From Pseudomonas saponiphila (GTDB lineage: Bacteria; Pseudomonadota; Gammaproteobacteria; Pseudomonadales; Pseudomonadaceae), in contig NZ_FNTJ01000002.1 of the NCBI RefSeq assembly GCF_900105185.1, positions 1,798,001 through 1,862,000 of the forward strand: a stretch of 64,000 bases of DNA. The letters are read 5' to 3'. Positions 23,105 through 51,595 of the stretch are shown here, one piece after another. Each line of letters begins with the position of its first letter. Within the stretch, counting starts at the first letter, position 1. The translations under genes were made by a program, and so were the position numbers. The notes beneath the pieces were generated by a model. The model did not search any database. It was not told the DNA's origin and saw only the letters and a list, made by a program, of their open reading frames with translations.

Positions 23105-23614
23105 CTACAGCGTGCCGCGCTGGAAGTGCCGGGCCAGCAGGTGGTCGAGGGACAACACTCCAGGGCCCTTGGCCATCAGCAGCAGAAGGATCGCCGCCCA
23201 GGTGCCGTGGGTCGGGTAGGCATCGGGGTAGACGAAGAGCTGGATGGTCAGGGTCATCCCCAGCAGTGCCAGGGCGGAGAAACGCGTGGCCAGTCCCAGC
23301 AGGATCAGCACCGGGAAAAAGTGCTCGGCGAAGGCCGCCAGGTGCGCCGCCACTTCCGGGCTCAGCAAGGGCACGTGGTATTCGCTCTGGAACAGGGGAA
23401 TGGTGGAGTCGGCCAGGCGCGGCCAGCCCAGTTCGAAGGTCCCGGAGAACAGGTCGATGGCCAGTCCTTCGATCTTGGTCTGGCCGGATTTCCAGAACAC
23501 CGCGGCGATGGAAAACCGCGCGATAAAGGCGATCAGGCTGTAGGGAATGCGCTCGAACCCTTGAATGATCCGGTGCAGCAGTCCGCTAGCGGGGGCAGGT
23601 GTCTGGGTGTTCAT
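23105..23614 (-). CDS. DoxX family membrane protein of the bufferin operon (HvfX-like)
   Basis: A 169-residue protein with four predicted membrane helices and the DoxX pattern (RFSIAAVFWKSGQTKIEG, FFPVLILLGLATRFSALALLGM). DoxX-like proteins close many MNIO bufferin operons, where they are named HvfX and are thought to act in redox or copper-peptide maturation. It starts 2 bp after the bufC-like stop, as the last gene of the operon. Confidence 0.85.
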   Translation of the reverse strand: MNTQTPAPASGLLHRIIQGFERIPYSLIAFIARFSIAAVFWKSGQTKIEGLAIDLFSGTFELGWPRLADSTIPLFQSEYHVPLLSPEVAAHLAAFAEHFFPVLILLGLATRFSALALLGMTLTIQLFVYPDAYPTHGTWAAILLLLMAKGPGVLSLDHLLARHFQRGTL

Positions 23615-23616
23615 GG

Positions 23617-24387
23617 TCACGCCTTCTGGTGAGGTTGCAGATCGATAAGGGCGCCGTGGGCCAGCAGCAGGCCCAGGCACTGGCCCAGGTCGAAGTCGGC
23701 CTGGGCATCCAGGGCATAGGCCGCCGCGACTTCCAGCGGCCAGTGATTGCGCAGAGCGTCGATGAAGGTCATGGCGCCGAGGTCCACGGCAATCACCTCG
23801 ACCTCCAGAGCGTTGCGCAGCACCAGGGCGTGCTGGCCCTGGTGCAGGTCGAACGTCGGCCAGGCGGCATCGCTCTGGTGAGCGGCCCACAGGCTGACGA
23901 CGGCGAAGGCCGAGTGCAGGGTGCGCAGTGATGGATGCAGCCGCAGGCACAGCTGGCCGAGGCGATCGGGCTGGTTCATTGCCGCCAGCAACCGGGCCGG
24001 TGGCAGGGGCTCGGCGTCGGCGGCGTGATAAGCCTCGACCCGCAGCCGTTCCAGGCGCGCCATATCGGCCAGATAAGGCAGGGCCGCCGCCGGAGCGAAG
24101 CCCTGGATGAAGTCCGCCAGGTCCTGGCCGTAGTCGTTGAGCAACGGGCTGTGTGGGGGGAAATCCTGCACGTACAGGCCGGCCATGGCATTGAAGAATG
24201 CCTGCCCCACCAGTTGCGCCACCACCGGGTAGGCCTCGGTGAGGGCATTGATCAGCGAGCCTTGCACGTTGTTGCGATAGACCGCGAAGCGGCTGGCCGG
24301 ATCGGCGCCGTTGCTGCTGCAAAGCCCCGCCGGGCAGGTGGAGTCGGCGCTCAGCAGCGCCTGGGCAAAACAGGCGTGGTTGCTCAT
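23617..24387 (-). CDS. bufC: BufC/HvfC-type RiPP maturation partner (DUF2063)
   Basis: A 256-residue protein with the DUF2063 N-terminal pattern: [26 protein letters not shown] near residue 33 (position given, motif FAVYRNN), then FNAMAGLYV and [10 protein letters not shown]. In bufferin systems this protein pairs with the MNIO enzyme and recruits the precursor peptide. Its ATG overlaps the bufB stop by 4 bp (ATGA), showing translational coupling. Confidence 0.88.
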
Positions 24388-25286
24388 GGCTGCGCCCGCG
24401 CCTGGTGCAACAGCGCCTGTGCCTGTGCGGCCTCCTCCAGCAGGGTGGTCAGGCTCGGCACCTGATTGTCCCGTTCGATCAGGGTGGCCATGGGGCCGAT
24501 CCGCTCCAGCACCTGCTGGTACAGGGCCCAGACTTCCCGGTCCACCGGGGCGCCGTGGTCATCGATCAACAGGCGGTCGCCGAGGCTGTCCCGGTCCTCG
24601 GCGAACCCGGCCAGATGAATCTCGCCCACCGCGTGCAGCGGCAGCGCCTGCATATAAGCCAGGGGATCGCGCTGGTGGTTGATGCAGGAGACGTAGAGGT
24701 TGTTGACGTCCAGCAGCAGGCCGCAGCCGCTGCGCTGGATCACTTCGCGGATGAAGTCCGTCTCGTCCAGGGTCGAGCGTTGGAACTGCAGGTAGGTGGC
24801 GGGGTTTTCCAGCAGCATGGTGCGCCCCAGGTGATTCTGCAGTTGATCGATGTGTTCGCAGACCCGTTGCAGGGTCGGCACGTCGTAGGCCAGGGGCAGC
24901 AGGTCGTTGAGAAACACCGGGCCGTGGCTGGACCAGGCCAGGTGTTCGGAAAAGGACTGGGGTTGATAGCGCTCGATCAACACCGCCAGGCGCCGCAGGT
25001 GCTCGCTGTCCAGGGGGCCTTCGCCACCGATGGACAGGCCGACGCCGTGCAGCGACAGCGGATAATCCTGGCGAATCAGCCCCAGGTAATGATGGAAGGG
25101 GCCGCCGGCCACCATGTAGTTTTCGGCGTGCACCTCGAAAAAGCCCAGCTCGGGCCGCTGTTCGAGAACCTCCTTGAAGTGTTCGCTCTTGAGCCCCAGG
25201 CCTGCGCGGGACGGCAGGCTCGGGACGCACGCCTGCGGATTTCGGAGCACCGTGACCGGCCGTTTCGGTTGATCGTGACCGGTCAT
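24384..25286 (-). CDS. bufB: MNIO (DUF692) peptide maturase BufB, N-terminus replaced by IS21 sequence
   Basis: A 300-codon frame. From the Gln at codon 18 on it is a near-complete MNIO enzyme, the multinuclear iron oxidase that converts Cys of the precursor to thiooxazoles. Metal-site blocks: [50 protein letters not shown] and DDHGAPV. The first 17 codons ([10 protein letters not shown]...) come from the end of the IS21 element, which ends at 25234. The native 17-codon start lies at 27875-27925 beyond the element. No strong ribosome site precedes the new ATG, so expression is uncertain. The enzyme core appears intact. Confidence 0.85.
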
Positions 25287-25396
25287 TTCGCTAACGCGTG
25301 ACCGCTCATTTCGGTAGCAACGTGACCGATTTTCCGCCTGTTCCGAAACAGGTGGTCACGGCTTACCGAAATCGCCGGTCACGACTTAGCGAAAGC
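25251..25396. repeat. Array of transposase-binding-like repeats in the IS21 left end
   Basis: Units of the form GTGACCG-n-TTTCGGT occur four times in a row (beginning near 25252, 25275, 25299 and 25320), then two inverted units (GGTCACGGCTTACCGAAA, GGTCACGACTTAGCGAAA). Two further units lie at the right end. IS21 elements carry such multiple terminal repeats as IstA binding sites. The same array occurs in copy 2. Confidence 0.8.
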
Positions 25397-25458
25397 CTTC
25401 CCCTTCGTTGCGCATGACCTGATGCGCCGCCATCCTCGACCGATTTCGGGAGAGGAAG

Positions 25459-27144
25459 ATGGCGGCGCCGCGAGTAGCCATGCGAAACATCAAAGAATGT
25501 CTGCGCCTCAAGTTTGAGGCCGGCTTGTCCCACGAGAAGATTGCCCGTGCCTTGCAGCTGTCCAAGGGCGTGGTTAGCAAGTACATCGCGGCGGCGCGGG
25601 TGGCCGGGCTGGACTGGCCGGCGCTGGTGGCCATGGACGAGGCCGCGCTGGCGGCCGCCTTGTTTGCACCGACGTCGACGAACAAGCCGCGCGGTGAGCG
25701 AGTGCTGCCCGATGTGCTGAGCATCCACCGCGAGTTGCGACGCAAGGGCGTGACCTTGCAGCTGCTGTGGGAGGAATATCTCGCCGCGCATGCGGGCCAG
25801 CCGACCTACCGCTACACCCAGTTCGTCGAGCACTACCGGCGCTACGCCCAGACGCTCAAACGTTCGATGCGTCAGCTGCACCGTGCGGGCGAGAAGCTAT
25901 TCATCGACTATGCCGGGCCGACGCTGCCGGTGGTCGACCCGGCCACCGGCGAAGTGCGCCGGGCGCACATCTTCGTCGCCGCCCTGGGCGCCTCGAATTA
26001 CACCTATGCCTGCGCGACGCCAGGCGAAACCCAGGTGGACTGGCTGACCTCGCTGGGCCAGGCTCTGACCTACTTTGGCGGCGTGCCGGAAATGGTTGTG
26101 CCGGACAATCCGCGCGCCCTGGTCGCCCAGCCGGATCGCTACGAGCCGGGCCTGAACCGGGCCACGCTGGAGTGCGCGCGTCATTACCAGACGGTGATCC
26201 TGCCGGCACGGCCACGCAAGCCTCAGGACAAGGCCAAGGCCGAGGTGGCGGTGCAGGTGGTCGAGCGCTGGATCATGGCGCGGCTGCGCCATCGGCAGTT
26301 CTTCAGCCTGCATGCGCTTAACCAGGCCATCGCCGAGCTGCTGGAGGATCTGAATCGGCGCCCGTTCAAGCGGCTCGATGGCTGCCGGCGCGACTGGTTC
26401 GAGCGCCTGGATCGCCCGGCCTTGCGAGCGCTGCCGGTGCATCCCTACGAGGTCGCCACCTTCAAGCGCTGCAAGGTCAGCATCGACTACCACATCGAGG
26501 TCAATGGCAGCTTCTACAGCGTGCCCTCCGCCCTGGCCCGGCAGAACGTGGACGTGCGACTGACGGCACACACCCTGGAAGTGCTGCATGGCAACCGGCG
26601 GGTGGCCAGCCACCTGCTGCTGGGGCGACGCGGCGCTTACAGTACCCAGCGCGAGCACATGCCCGCGGCGCACCAGGCGCATCGCGAATGGACGCCACAA
26701 CGCCTGCTCGACTGGGGCGCGCGGATCGGCCCCTACACGCGCCAACTGATCGATCACCAACTGACCCACAAGCCGCACCCGGAGATGGGCTACCGCGCCT
26801 GCCTCGGCCTGCTCTCGCTGGCCCGGCGCTATGGCAATGCACGCCTGGAAGCCGCTGCCGAACGTGCCGTACACCTGCGCGCCTTCACCGGGCGCAGCGT
26901 GCGCAACCTGCTCCAGCAAGGCCTGGATCAACAGCCGCTGCCCCAGCGTGCCGCCGAAACGACCTTACCCGGCGACCACGAGAACGTCCGTGGCGCCGAC
27001 TACTACCAACCCCCGCAACAGGAGCTGTTCGATGATGCCGCAACACACCCTGAATCAACTGCACCAGCTACGCCTGGACGGCATGGCCCGCGCCCTGGAA
27101 GAGCAATGGACGCTGCCGGCCAGCCACAGCCTGAGCTTCGATGA
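25459..27144 (+). CDS. istA: IS21 transposase IstA (copy 1)
   Basis: A 561-residue DDE transposase. It has an N-terminal helix-turn-helix ([21 protein letters not shown], about residues 23-43), catalytic acids in [18 protein letters not shown] and the Glu of KAKAEVAVQ, and a C-terminal beta-barrel domain ([19 protein letters not shown] stretch). The frame runs 113 nt into istB. This overlap is longer than usual and the last 35 or so residues are low-complexity Pro/Arg. Confidence 0.95.
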
Positions 27145-27781
27145 ACGCCTCGGCCTACTGCTCGACCGCGAACTGGCCTGGCGTGACAACCAGCGCCTGG
27201 TACGGCTGCGCAAGAAGGCCAAGCTCAAGTACGCCAACGCCTGCCTGGAAGATCTCGACCGCCGCACCGGACGCGCCCTGGACGAGCGTCTGATCGCCAC
27301 CCTGGCCAGTGGCGACTGGATCCGCCAGCAGCACAACCTGCTGCTGACCGGCCCGACCGGTGCCGGCAAAACCTGGCTGGCCTGCGCCCTGGGCAACCAG
27401 GCCTGCCGCCAGGGCTATAGCACCCTGTACCTGCGCACCCCGCGCCTGCTGGAACAACTGCGCATCGCTCATGGCGACGGCAGCTTCGGCCGTACCCTGC
27501 AACAGCTGGCAAAGGTCGACGTCCTGGTGCTGGACGACTGGGCGCTAGCCCCGCTGGAGGAAGGAGCCCGGCATGACCTGCTGGAGGTGATCGACGACCG
27601 CGCTGGCAGCCGCTCCACCATCCTGACGAGCCAACTGCCCATCGAGCACTGGCACGGCTGGATCAACGACCCGACCCTGGCCGATGCCATCCTCGACCGC
27701 CTGGTGCACAACGCCTACCGACTGACGATGAAAGGCGAGTCGCTGCGCCGAAAAAAAGCCGAGGAACAAGCCGCATCGTGA
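27032..27781 (+). CDS. istB: IS21 helper ATPase IstB (copy 1)
   Basis: A 249-residue AAA+ ATPase that assembles on target DNA and activates IstA. Walker A is GPTGAGKTW and Walker B is VLVLDDWAL. The start [10 protein letters not shown] (27032) follows AACAGGAG; the frame is open further upstream inside istA but those residues are not IstB-like. Confidence 0.95.
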
Positions 27782-27874
27782 CCGATGCGATTACAATCCA
27801 GAACCCGCGCAACCGGGGTGGAAGCACCGGTCACGTATTAGCGAAACGCTCGGTCACGTTCACCGAAATCCGCA

Positions 27875-27925
27875 GCACGCCTGAATGTCGTGGCGGGGGT
27901 TGTGGTTCAGGGCGCTGTTCATCAT
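27875..27925 (-). pseudogene. bufB: Detached 5' end of bufB
   Basis: The first 17 codons of native bufB (two tandem ATGs at 27925 and 27922, then NSALNHNP...) separated from the rest by the IS21 element. Reading on into the element meets a TGA after four codons. Joining this piece to the frame at 25233 with one target duplication gives an uninterrupted MNIO gene. Confidence 0.85.
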
Positions 27926-27947
27926 CGACACTCAGGCTAATACCGGA

Positions 27948-28250
27948 TCAGGACTTGGCTTTGAAGGCTTCGAGCTGGCCGAAACCGGTGGGCGAGGTGC
28001 TGCTGGCGGTTTTTTCGCAAGTGCCCTTGGGCACCAGTTTCCAGGCATTGGCCTGATCGTTGACCTTGGAAGTCCCGGCGCAGGTGGTGCCGGCGCCCGC
28101 GGCGCAATCGTTCTTGCCCTTCATGGCCACGCCGAAGCACTTCTCCATGTCGTCGGCGGCATGGGCAGTGGTGGACACCGCGGCGATGCTCAGGGCGGAG
28201 CCCAGGGCCAGGACCAGGGCGGTGGCGGACAGAGTGCGAGTGGTGCTCAT
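27948..28250 (-). CDS. bufA: Bufferin precursor peptide BufA (DUF2282)
   Basis: A 100-residue exported protein with a signal peptide ([20 protein letters not shown]... TTAHA) and a mature part with four Cys: [17 protein letters not shown] and KGTCEK. This is the DUF2282/BufA1 pattern; in characterised bufferins the Cys bind copper and some become thiooxazoles. It is the first gene of the buf operon, 22 bp before the native bufB start. A TGTAAC element at 28329-28334 (minus strand), about 80 bp upstream, resembles an ECF sigma -35, but no matching -10 is clear. Confidence 0.9.
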
Positions 28251-28365
28251 GGTGTTTCTCCGGATCGGGGTGGGTTCAAGAAAGCGTGTTTGCTTGCTTA
28301 TCCCTCTAGAGAAGGCACCTGGGGATTTGTTACAGCCCGGAGCGGAGTTTTTTATTCCGGAATGA

Positions 28366-28391
28366 AAAAACGGCCCCGAAGGGCCGTTTTC
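28366..28391 (-). terminator. Terminator of the braC-liv operon
   Basis: Perfect stem AAAACGGCCC/GGGCCGTTTT with a 4-nt loop, followed on the minus strand by a T run, 15 bp after the livF stop. Confidence 0.9.
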
Positions 28392-28405
28392 ATTGCGGTG
28401 CGTGC

Positions 28406-29107
28406 TTAGCCGCCCAGATACGCTTCGCGTACCTTCGGATCGGTCAGCAGCGCCTCGCCGGTGCCTTGCATCACCACCCGGCCGTTTTCCAGCACGTAGG
28501 CGCGGTCGGCGATCTTCAACGCCTGGTTGGCGTTCTGCTCCACCAGGAACACCGTCACACCGTCGCGGCGCAACTGTTCGATGATGTCGAAGATCTGCTG
28601 GATGATGATCGGCGCCAGGCCCAGGGATGGCTCGTCCAGCAGCAACAGCTTGGGTTTGCTCATCAGCGCCCGGCCTATGGCGAGCATCTGCTGCTCGCCG
28701 CCGGACATGGTGCCGCCGCGCTGGGTGAAGCGCTCCTTGAGCCGTGGGAACAGCGCCAGGACCTTGTCCATCTGTTCCTGGTAGTCGCCCTTGTCGGTGA
28801 AGAAGCCGCCCATGGCGAGGTTTTCCTCCACGGTCAGGCGGGCGAATACCCGGCGGCCTTCGGGAACCACGGCAATGCTCTTGCGCATGATCTGCGCCGA
28901 GCTTTGCCCCACCAGCTCTTCACCCAGGTAACGGATGCTGCCGCTGTGGGCCTGCGGCGAGCCGCAGAGGGTCATCAGCAGGGTGGACTTGCCAGCACCG
29001 TTGGCGCCGATCAGGGTGACGATTTCGCCCTGGCGGATCTCGACGTTGACGCTGTGCAACGCCTGGATCTTGCCGTAGAAGGTGGAAACGTTTTCGAACT
29101 GCAGCAT
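28406..29107 (-). CDS. livF: Branched-chain amino acid ABC transporter ATPase LivF
   Basis: A 233-residue ABC ATPase, last gene of the liv operon. Walker [11 protein letters not shown], signature [15 protein letters not shown], Walker [14 protein letters not shown]. It energises uptake of leucine, isoleucine and valine together with LivG (called BraG in P. aeruginosa). It starts immediately after the livG stop (TAAATG). Confidence 0.96.
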
Positions 29108-48895: not shown

Positions 48896-48930
48896 AAAAA
48901 AAGGTGCGTCCCCGGGGACGCACCTTTTTT
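48896..48930 (-). terminator. pitA terminator, separated from pitA by IS21 copy 2
   Basis: Stem AAGGTGCGTCCCC/GGGGACGCACCTT with A and T runs. The IS21 element begins within the T run, and the other half of the duplicated T run is next to the pitA stop at 51571. Before the insertion the hairpin would have followed pitA by about 18 bp. Confidence 0.85.
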
Positions 48931-49022
48931 GCGGATTTCGGTGAACGTGACCGAGCGTTTCGCTAATACGTGACCGGTGCTTCCACCCCGGTTGCGCGGG
49001 TTCTGGATTGTAATCGCATCGG

Positions 49023-49772
49023 TCACGATGCGGCTTGTTCCTCGGCTTTTTTTCGGCGCAGCGACTCGCCTTTCATCGTCAGTCGGTAGGCGTTGTGCAC
49101 CAGGCGGTCGAGGATGGCATCGGCCAGGGTCGGGTCGTTGATCCAGCCGTGCCAGTGCTCGATGGGCAGTTGGCTCGTCAGGATGGTGGAGCGGCTGCCA
49201 GCGCGGTCGTCGATCACCTCCAGCAGGTCATGCCGGGCTCCTTCCTCCAGCGGGGCTAGCGCCCAGTCGTCCAGCACCAGGACGTCGACCTTTGCCAGCT
49301 GTTGCAGGGTACGGCCGAAGCTGCCGTCGCCATGAGCGATGCGCAGTTGTTCCAGCAGGCGCGGGGTGCGCAGGTACAGGGTGCTATAGCCCTGGCGGCA
49401 GGCCTGGTTGCCCAGGGCGCAGGCCAGCCAGGTTTTGCCGGCACCGGTCGGGCCGGTCAGCAGCAGGTTGTGCTGCTGGCGGATCCAGTCGCCACTGGCC
49501 AGGGTGGCGATCAGACGCTCGTCCAGGGCGCGTCCGGTGCGGCGGTCGAGATCTTCCAGGCAGGCGTTGGCGTACTTGAGCTTGGCCTTCTTGCGCAGCC
49601 GTACCAGGCGCTGGTTGTCACGCCAGGCCAGTTCGCGGTCGAGCAGTAGGCCGAGGCGTTCATCGAAGCTCAGGCTGTGGCTGGCCGGCAGCGTCCATTG
49701 CTCTTCCAGGGCGCGGGCCATGCCGTCCAGGCGTAGCTGGTGCAGTTGATTCAGGGTGTGTTGCGGCATCAT
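49023..49772 (-). CDS. istB: IS21 helper ATPase IstB (copy 2)
   Basis: Identical in translation to the istB of copy 1 (249 residues; Walker [10 protein letters not shown]). Confidence 0.95.
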
Positions 49773-51345
49773 CGAACAGCTCCTGTTGCGGGGGTTGGTA
49801 GTAGTCGGCGCCACGGACGTTCTCGTGGTCGCCGGGTAAGGTCGTTTCGGCGGCACGCTGGGGCAGCGGCTGTTGATCCAGGCCTTGCTGGAGCAGGTTG
49901 CGCACGCTGCGCCCGGTGAAGGCGCGCAGGTGTACGGCACGTTCGGCAGCGGCTTCCAGGCGTGCATTGCCATAGCGCCGGGCCAGCGAGAGCAGGCCGA
50001 GGCAGGCGCGGTAGCCCATCTCCGGGTGCGGCTTGTGGGTCAGTTGGTGATCGATCAGTTGGCGCGTGTAGGGGCCGATCCGCGCGCCCCAGTCGAGCAG
50101 GCGTTGTGGCGTCCATTCGCGATGCGCCTGGTGCGCCGCGGGCATGTGCTCGCGCTGGGTACTGTAAGCGCCGCGTCGCCCCAGCAGCAGGTGGCTGGCC
50201 ACCCGCCGGTTGCCATGCAGCACTTCCAGGGTGTGTGCCGTCAGTCGCACGTCCACGTTCTGCCGGGCCAGGGCGGAGGGCACGCTGTAGAAGCTGCCAT
50301 TGACCTCGATGTGGTAGTCGATGCTGACCTTGCAGCGCTTGAAGGTGGCGACCTCGTAGGGATGCACCGGCAGCGCTCGCAAGGCCGGGCGATCCAGGCG
50401 CTCGAACCAGTCGCGCCGGCAGCCATCGAGCCGCTTGAACGGGCGCCGATTCAGATCCTCCAGCAGCTCGGCGATGGCCTGGTTAAGCGCATGCAGGCTG
50501 AAGAACTGCCGATGGCGCAGCCGCGCCATGATCCAGCGCTCGACCACCTGCACCGCCACCTCGGCCTTGGCCTTGTCCTGAGGCTTGCGTGGCCGTGCCG
50601 GCAGGATCACCGTCTGGTAATGACGCGCGCACTCCAGCGTGGCCCGGTTCAGGCCCGGCTCGTAGCGATCCGGCTGGGCGACCAGGGCGCGCGGATTGTC
50701 CGGCACAACCATTTCCGGCACGCCGCCAAAGTAGGTCAGAGCCTGGCCCAGCGAGGTCAGCCAGTCCACCTGGGTTTCGCCTGGCGTCGCGCAGGCATAG
50801 GTGTAATTCGAGGCGCCCAGGGCGGCGACGAAGATGTGCGCCCGGCGCACTTCGCCGGTGGCCGGGTCGACCACCGGCAGCGTCGGCCCGGCATAGTCGA
50901 TGAATAGCTTCTCGCCCGCACGGTGCAGCTGACGCATCGAACGTTTGAGCGTCTGGGCGTAGCGCCGGTAGTGCTCGACGAACTGGGTGTAGCGGTAGGT
51001 CGGCTGGCCCGCATGCGCGGCGAGATATTCCTCCCACAGCAGCTGCAAGGTCACGCCCTTGCGTCGCAACTCGCGGTGGATGCTCAGCACATCGGGCAGC
51101 ACTCGCTCACCGCGCGGCTTGTTCGTCGACGTCGGTGCAAACAAGGCGGCCGCCAGCGCGGCCTCGTCCATGGCCACCAGCGCCGGCCAGTCCAGCCCGG
51201 CCACCCGCGCCGCCGCGATGTACTTGCTAACCACGCCCTTGGACAGCTGCAAGGCACGGGCAATCTTCTCGTGGGACAAGCCGGCCTCAAACTTGAGGCG
51301 CAGACATTCTTTGATGTTTCGCATGGCTACTCGCGGCGCCGCCAT
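49660..51345 (-). CDS. istA: IS21 transposase IstA (copy 2)
   Basis: Identical in translation to the istA of copy 1 (561 residues) and overlapping istB by the same 113 nt. In this position it could also be reached by read-through transcripts from pitA. Confidence 0.95.
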
Positions 51346-51595
51346 CTTCCTCTCCCGAAATCGGTCGAGGATGGCGGCGCATCAGGTCATGCGCAACGAA
51401 GGGGAAGGCTTTCGCTAAGTCGTGACCGGCGATTTCGGTAAGCCGTGACCACCTGTTTCGGAACAGGCGGAAAATCGGTCACGTTGCTACCGAAATGAGC
51501 GGTCACGCGTTAGCGAAATGACCGGTCACGATCAACCGAAACGGCCGGTCACGGTGCTCCGAAATCCGCACCTTTTTTATTCTCGGACCGGTGGA

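Follow-up and report, generated by a model that had tools for sequence, protein, structure and literature searches.

The bufferin operon and the element inserted in it

The window (the whole stretch of Pseudomonas saponiphila DNA analyzed, 64,000 nucleotides) includes a bufferin operon on the minus strand, in the order bufA, codons 1-17 of bufB, an insertion element, the remainder of bufB (down to 24384), bufC and doxX (Table 1). The core of bufferin clusters has been described as a gene set of DUF2282, MbnB_TglH_ChrH, DUF2063 and DoxX (PMC12452194), and the genes that characterize the Buf1 set, a BufB-type MNIO maturase followed by DUF2063 and DoxX genes, were all present here. Compared with the Buf1 operon bufA-bufB-bufC-doxX as described in that source, the same four families were found in the same order and the maturase passed the BufB model, but bufB is cut by a 2.64-kb element and its N-terminus is element-coded (PMC12452194). 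The bufA product matched DUF2282; its Cys residues were visible in the sequence, and its signal peptide was recognized by eye only. BufC and DoxX scored below the cut-offs of the NCBI HvfC and HvfX models (42.9 bits vs. a cut-off of 142, and 38.6 bits vs. 80, respectively), so “BufC” and “DoxX” are the safer names. A first-pass annotation of this DNA had reported BufA, BufB, BufC and HvfX as recognizable: the four families were confirmed by Pfam, and BufB also by its equivalog model, but the HvfX model was matched only below its cut-off. Among 80 related loci, bufA was found in 77, in all of them directly before bufB and ending -49 to 142 nt from the bufB match.

Table 1. Features of the interrupted bufferin operon, of the inserted element and of the second bufferin operon. 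Positions are those of the window unless another sequence is named.
Feature	Position	Strand	Basis
Bipartite motif TGTAAC-N16-TCTCTAG, likely ECF-type promoter of the bufferin operon	28306-28334	-	conservation; promoter function inferred
bufA, Buf1-type DUF2282 precursor, 100 aa	27948-28250	-	PF10048, E 2.6e-24
First 17 codons of native bufB, severed from the remainder	27875-27925	-	sequence; same uncut start in G061 and P. protegens FD6
Target repeat GCACGCC, right copy	27875-27881	.	sequence, re-read by script
IS21-type element, IS1474-like, 2,641 bp, ends TGCGGATTTCGG / CCGAAATCCGCA	25234-27874	+	99.6% identity to annotated IS21 element
istB helper ATPase	27032-27781	+	PF01695, E 1.8e-83
istA transposase	25459-27144	+	Mu-transpos_C_2 above cut-off, rve below cut-off
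Element-coded new start: ATG, 17 codons, two bases of Gln codon	25234-25286	-	sequence
Target repeat GCACGCC, left copy	25227-25233	.	sequence, re-read by script
bufB fusion frame (300 aa) with the whole MNIO bufferin maturase domain	24384-25286	-	PF05114, NF050167
bufC, DUF2063 partner protein	23617-24387	-	PF09836, E 1.3e-24
doxX, DoxX-family membrane protein	23105-23614	-	PF07681
Second motif site, before the second bufferin operon	G000:C2:260322-260350	-	
Second bufferin operon (Buf2)	L216 2320-4262, G000:C2	-	NCBI models

Native bufB starts at 27925 and runs for 17 codons before the element; the insertion after codon 17 and the GCACGCC target duplication, both claimed in the first-pass annotation, were borne out when the two repeat copies and the element ends were re-read. 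The element has the features of the IS21 family: istA and istB overlap and read in one direction, the ends are inverted and the target repeats are short. Over its full length it was 99.6% identical to an element on a Pseudomonas plasmid whose annotation names IS21 and an IstB of the IS1474 family; the label “IS1474-like” goes back to the IstB family of the annotated plasmid copies. A second, identical copy is located at 48930-51570 of the window (minus strand), flanked by the repeat AAAAAGG. The comparison with a relative lacking the element, proposed in the first-pass annotation, was provided by G061, the closest genome by BufB match of the 194 searched: the site was uninterrupted there, and the printed stretch contained GGCGTGC once.

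The fused bufB frame

Outward from the left end of the element, start codons were present in one of the three frames. In the fused bufB, 17 codons are read from the element ATG at 25286, and the “CA” of the element end together with the first G of the target repeat restores a Gln codon, the point at which the native frame had been said to be rejoined. Residues 28-293 of the product matched MbnB_TglH_ChrH (PF05114) in Pfam, and the NCBI BufB equivalog NF050167 was matched with 384.9 bits (cut-off 310) over profile positions 1-262 of 262. All 32 near-invariant positions (those at which 97% or more of 80 relatives have H, D, E, N or C) were kept, in agreement with the earlier statement that the metal-site blocks survive. 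The AlphaFold2 model of the fused protein had a mean pLDDT of 85.8 and residues 1-20 were the sole listed stretch below 50, the replaced leader thus being modelled as disordered and the core as confident. Loss of the whole domain was ruled out by the Pfam match, the equivalog score, the kept residues and the AlphaFold2 model.

The leader of native BufB is hypervariable: N-termini differ in length and sequence among relatives, and about 7 residues precede the LPxRSGLGLK core in five of the relatives printed (L076, L077, L083, L096 and L103). If it is made, the fused BufB should be active.

A likely promoter motif shared by bufferin operons

Two boxes stood out upstream of bufA in 19 of 20 loci that had been selected by hand from the 80 for display. 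The pattern TGTAAC-N(10-20)-TCTCTAG was found in 49 of the 80 related loci, always with a spacer of 16 (49 of 49), and the reversed motif in none; the exact motif was absent from the other 31, corresponding to 15 of the first 64 loci (Pseudomonas) and all 16 others. Across 99 Pseudomonas genomes the N16 motif occurred 40 times, in 33 genomes. Because a reversed control motif was also hit 12 times in these genomes, the number of sites does not by itself decide the matter; their location does. A maturase gene was present downstream on the same strand at all 40 sites, at 348-425 nt in 39 of them and at 3,020 nt in the case of the window's own site (each distance stops at the edge of the match to the maturase, and 42 maturase rows came from the BufB search list). 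CTAG, which is contained in the second box, is rare in Pseudomonas. In the P. saponiphila genome the motif (spacers 13-18) was found at two sites, before bufA and before the precursor gene of a second bufferin operon (0 for the control). The inserted element is without the motif, since its 101 copies add no site in the genome.

The two boxes, their fixed spacing and their position before the regulated genes correspond to the general organization of ECF promoters. In Caulobacter, the sigma-F motif GTAACC-N16-CGAA is described as controlling two DUF2282-DUF692-DUF2063(-DoxX) operons (PMC3511200), and the gig operon of C. metallidurans, said to encode bufferins, is placed near the ECF sigma gene rpoQ (PMC13192273); for these reasons the Pseudomonas motif was read as an ECF-type promoter. 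It has in common with the described sigma-F promoters the GTAAC box, the spacing of 16 and a similar operon make-up, but its second box is TCTCTAG and the P. saponiphila genome lacks NrsF (PMC3511200): there were no matches to this anti-sigma factor (PF06532) in the genome, while the Caulobacter control genome was positive. Sigma-F/NrsF-type control as in Caulobacter was rejected on this basis.

The conservation and placement of the motif suggest that it is likely the bufferin promoter in Pseudomonas and bufA's own promoter; that bufA stays upstream with a promoter of its own, as the first-pass annotation had it, is likely, every one of the 40 motif sites being followed by a maturase gene. An inverted repeat (CAAGCAAGC...GCTTG) was also seen in the bufA leader, between the motif and the bufA start (about 28265-28300, minus strand), and is present in many relatives. 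Among the papers listed in our literature search, none was recognized as a description of the motif in Pseudomonas or of the insertion in bufB.

The second bufferin operon is uncut. Its BufA2-type precursor and BufB-type maturase scored above the NCBI cut-offs, and its HvfC-like partner below. A 633-aa frame resembling a P-type ATPase (labelled by eye) lies upstream on the same strand. A third, divergent match to the MNIO domain (101.9 bits) was found within a 655-codon open frame at G000:C2:1869052-1869597 (plus strand; L214).

Spread of the element and expression of bufB

The exact left end of the element was present in 101 copies in the 7.38-Mb genome. Of the 100 copies read, 97 had an element body identical over 2,641 bp, and 92 were flanked by target repeats of 5-7 bp which differed from site to site; the three deviating bodies were L150, with an N gap, and L166 and L210, which were altered. 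Element matches in the genome itself were 100% identical at all 40 scored places. The left end was found in 3 of 297 other genomes of the genus, with 1-2 copies each (up to 2 mismatches; draft assemblies can hide repeats). The near-complete identity of the copies points to a recent burst, and the insertion in bufB is an ordinary one from this apparently recent event. Among L165, L166 and L198, located at the ends of C1 and C2, L165 and L166 have 404 nt of left flank in common, and the right flank of L166 is that of L198; L166 thus has a chimeric junction across the element, produced either by recombination or during assembly.

A confidently called gene was interrupted at 51 of the 92 clean sites, genes and frames being called with a simple codon score and the 41 sites without a confident gene falling outside the frame count. 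In 23 of these 51 cases the gene continues outward past the left end; five of the 23 (bufB among them) were in the ATG frame, vs. 7.7 expected; selection for in-frame insertions was rejected on these numbers. The insertion itself is real beyond chance; an in-frame join would be expected at this rate by chance alone, and the “rescue” by an in-frame ATG looks like a one-in-three accident. None of the genes just downstream of the interrupted genes was recognized as essential (20 candidates from the 51 sites, bufC included, judged by eye), so no natural test of outward expression from the element end was found.

No sigma-70-like site was detected in 25150-28500, and none toward bufB at the left end (0.2 expected), in a scan that misses other promoter types or a promoter spanning the junction. 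In the IS21 family a promoter is described as arising when the right and left ends join, the outward -35 lying in the right end (PMC9330008). As in the IS21 examples given there of elements that activate their neighbours, the element here sits directly before a promoter-deprived gene, but bufB faces the left end and not the right end with the outward -35 (PMC9330008). The Shine-Dalgarno match at the element ATG was -2.2 kcal/mol (background mean -2.3), which is weak evidence because native bufB also scores -2.2. Structure prediction for the left end (z -2.6 over a 107-base stretch) paired two bases of the ATG and left the third free. A bufA transcript would cross 2.6 kb antisense to istAB, including a terminator-like hairpin at 27790-27771, 85-104 bases inside the element (z -2.2); five terminator-like sites were found in the region vs. 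2.5 expected (sd 1.6), so this hairpin is no more than chance predicts and read-through from bufA is possible.

Together, we consider it probable that a burst of the IS21-type element cut bufB, bufC and doxX off the bufferin promoter, with weak or no expression of these genes as the likely outcome, while bufA keeps its likely promoter. One copy from the apparently recent burst entered bufB, and the separation of the three genes from the likely promoter by a further 2.6 kb would result in low or no expression (a polar knock-down); transcription and translation would seldom reach the fused bufB frame, while bufA is still under the conserved motif. As the fused frame would rarely be expressed, BufA is probably exported largely without the thiooxazole modification. 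Against a polar knock-down stand the complete enzyme domain and its full set of near-invariant residues, and the in-frame ATG would leave a low level of active enzyme possible if some transcript passes. The insertion is in this respect less final than most, through its in-frame start, though a rescue is not supported by anything found. The other consequence put forward in the first-pass annotation, maturation genes that may be uncoupled or silenced, fits best.

The same annotation had proposed that bufB is rescued by the element. Transcription from a left-end promoter or by read-through from bufA, with translation starting at the element ATG, would then give an active maturase outside the control of bufA. 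The open 300-aa frame with its complete domain, the hypervariability of the leader that was replaced (about 7 residues before the core in some native proteins) and the modelled contrast between disordered leader and confident core are in favour of this proposal; nevertheless it is unlikely, given an in-frame rate at the level of chance, the lack of a sigma-70-like outward site in the scan, the outward -35 of IS21 being in the other end, an element without the bufferin motif, and an ATG without a Shine-Dalgarno match and partly paired. A one-step rewiring of the RiPP pathway, in which a maturase whose 17-residue leader is coded by the element would be made independently of its substrate, and the substrate and Buf2 would be under TGTAAC-N16-TCTCTAG read by a copper-responsive sigma factor, is quite doubtful.

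It is highly improbable that selection favoured the insertion, for instance through a benefit of losing Buf1 maturation in a strain with another bufferin operon: the genome does have a complete Buf2 operon, preceded by the same promoter motif, but 100 further left ends exist beside the one in bufB, and the proportion of clean sites in confidently called genes is as an untargeted burst would give. An assembly artefact, with the element misplaced at bufB, is barely credible despite the identity of the copies, the N gap of L150 and the chimeric flanks of L166 near the end of contig C1, because G061 carries the empty site with a single copy matching the 7-bp repeat, and the repeats flanking other copies are different ones.

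This natural strain has its bufferin precursor and maturase genes separated, and the sibling copies of the element let the base rate of such a “rescue” be measured. The intact Buf2 operon may still provide some of the copper buffering. The candidate promoter motif common to the bufferin operons is a more useful result than the insertion: with all 40 of its sites in 99 Pseudomonas genomes marking bufferin operons, it is specific enough to allow direct tests of how copper bufferins are controlled in this genus.
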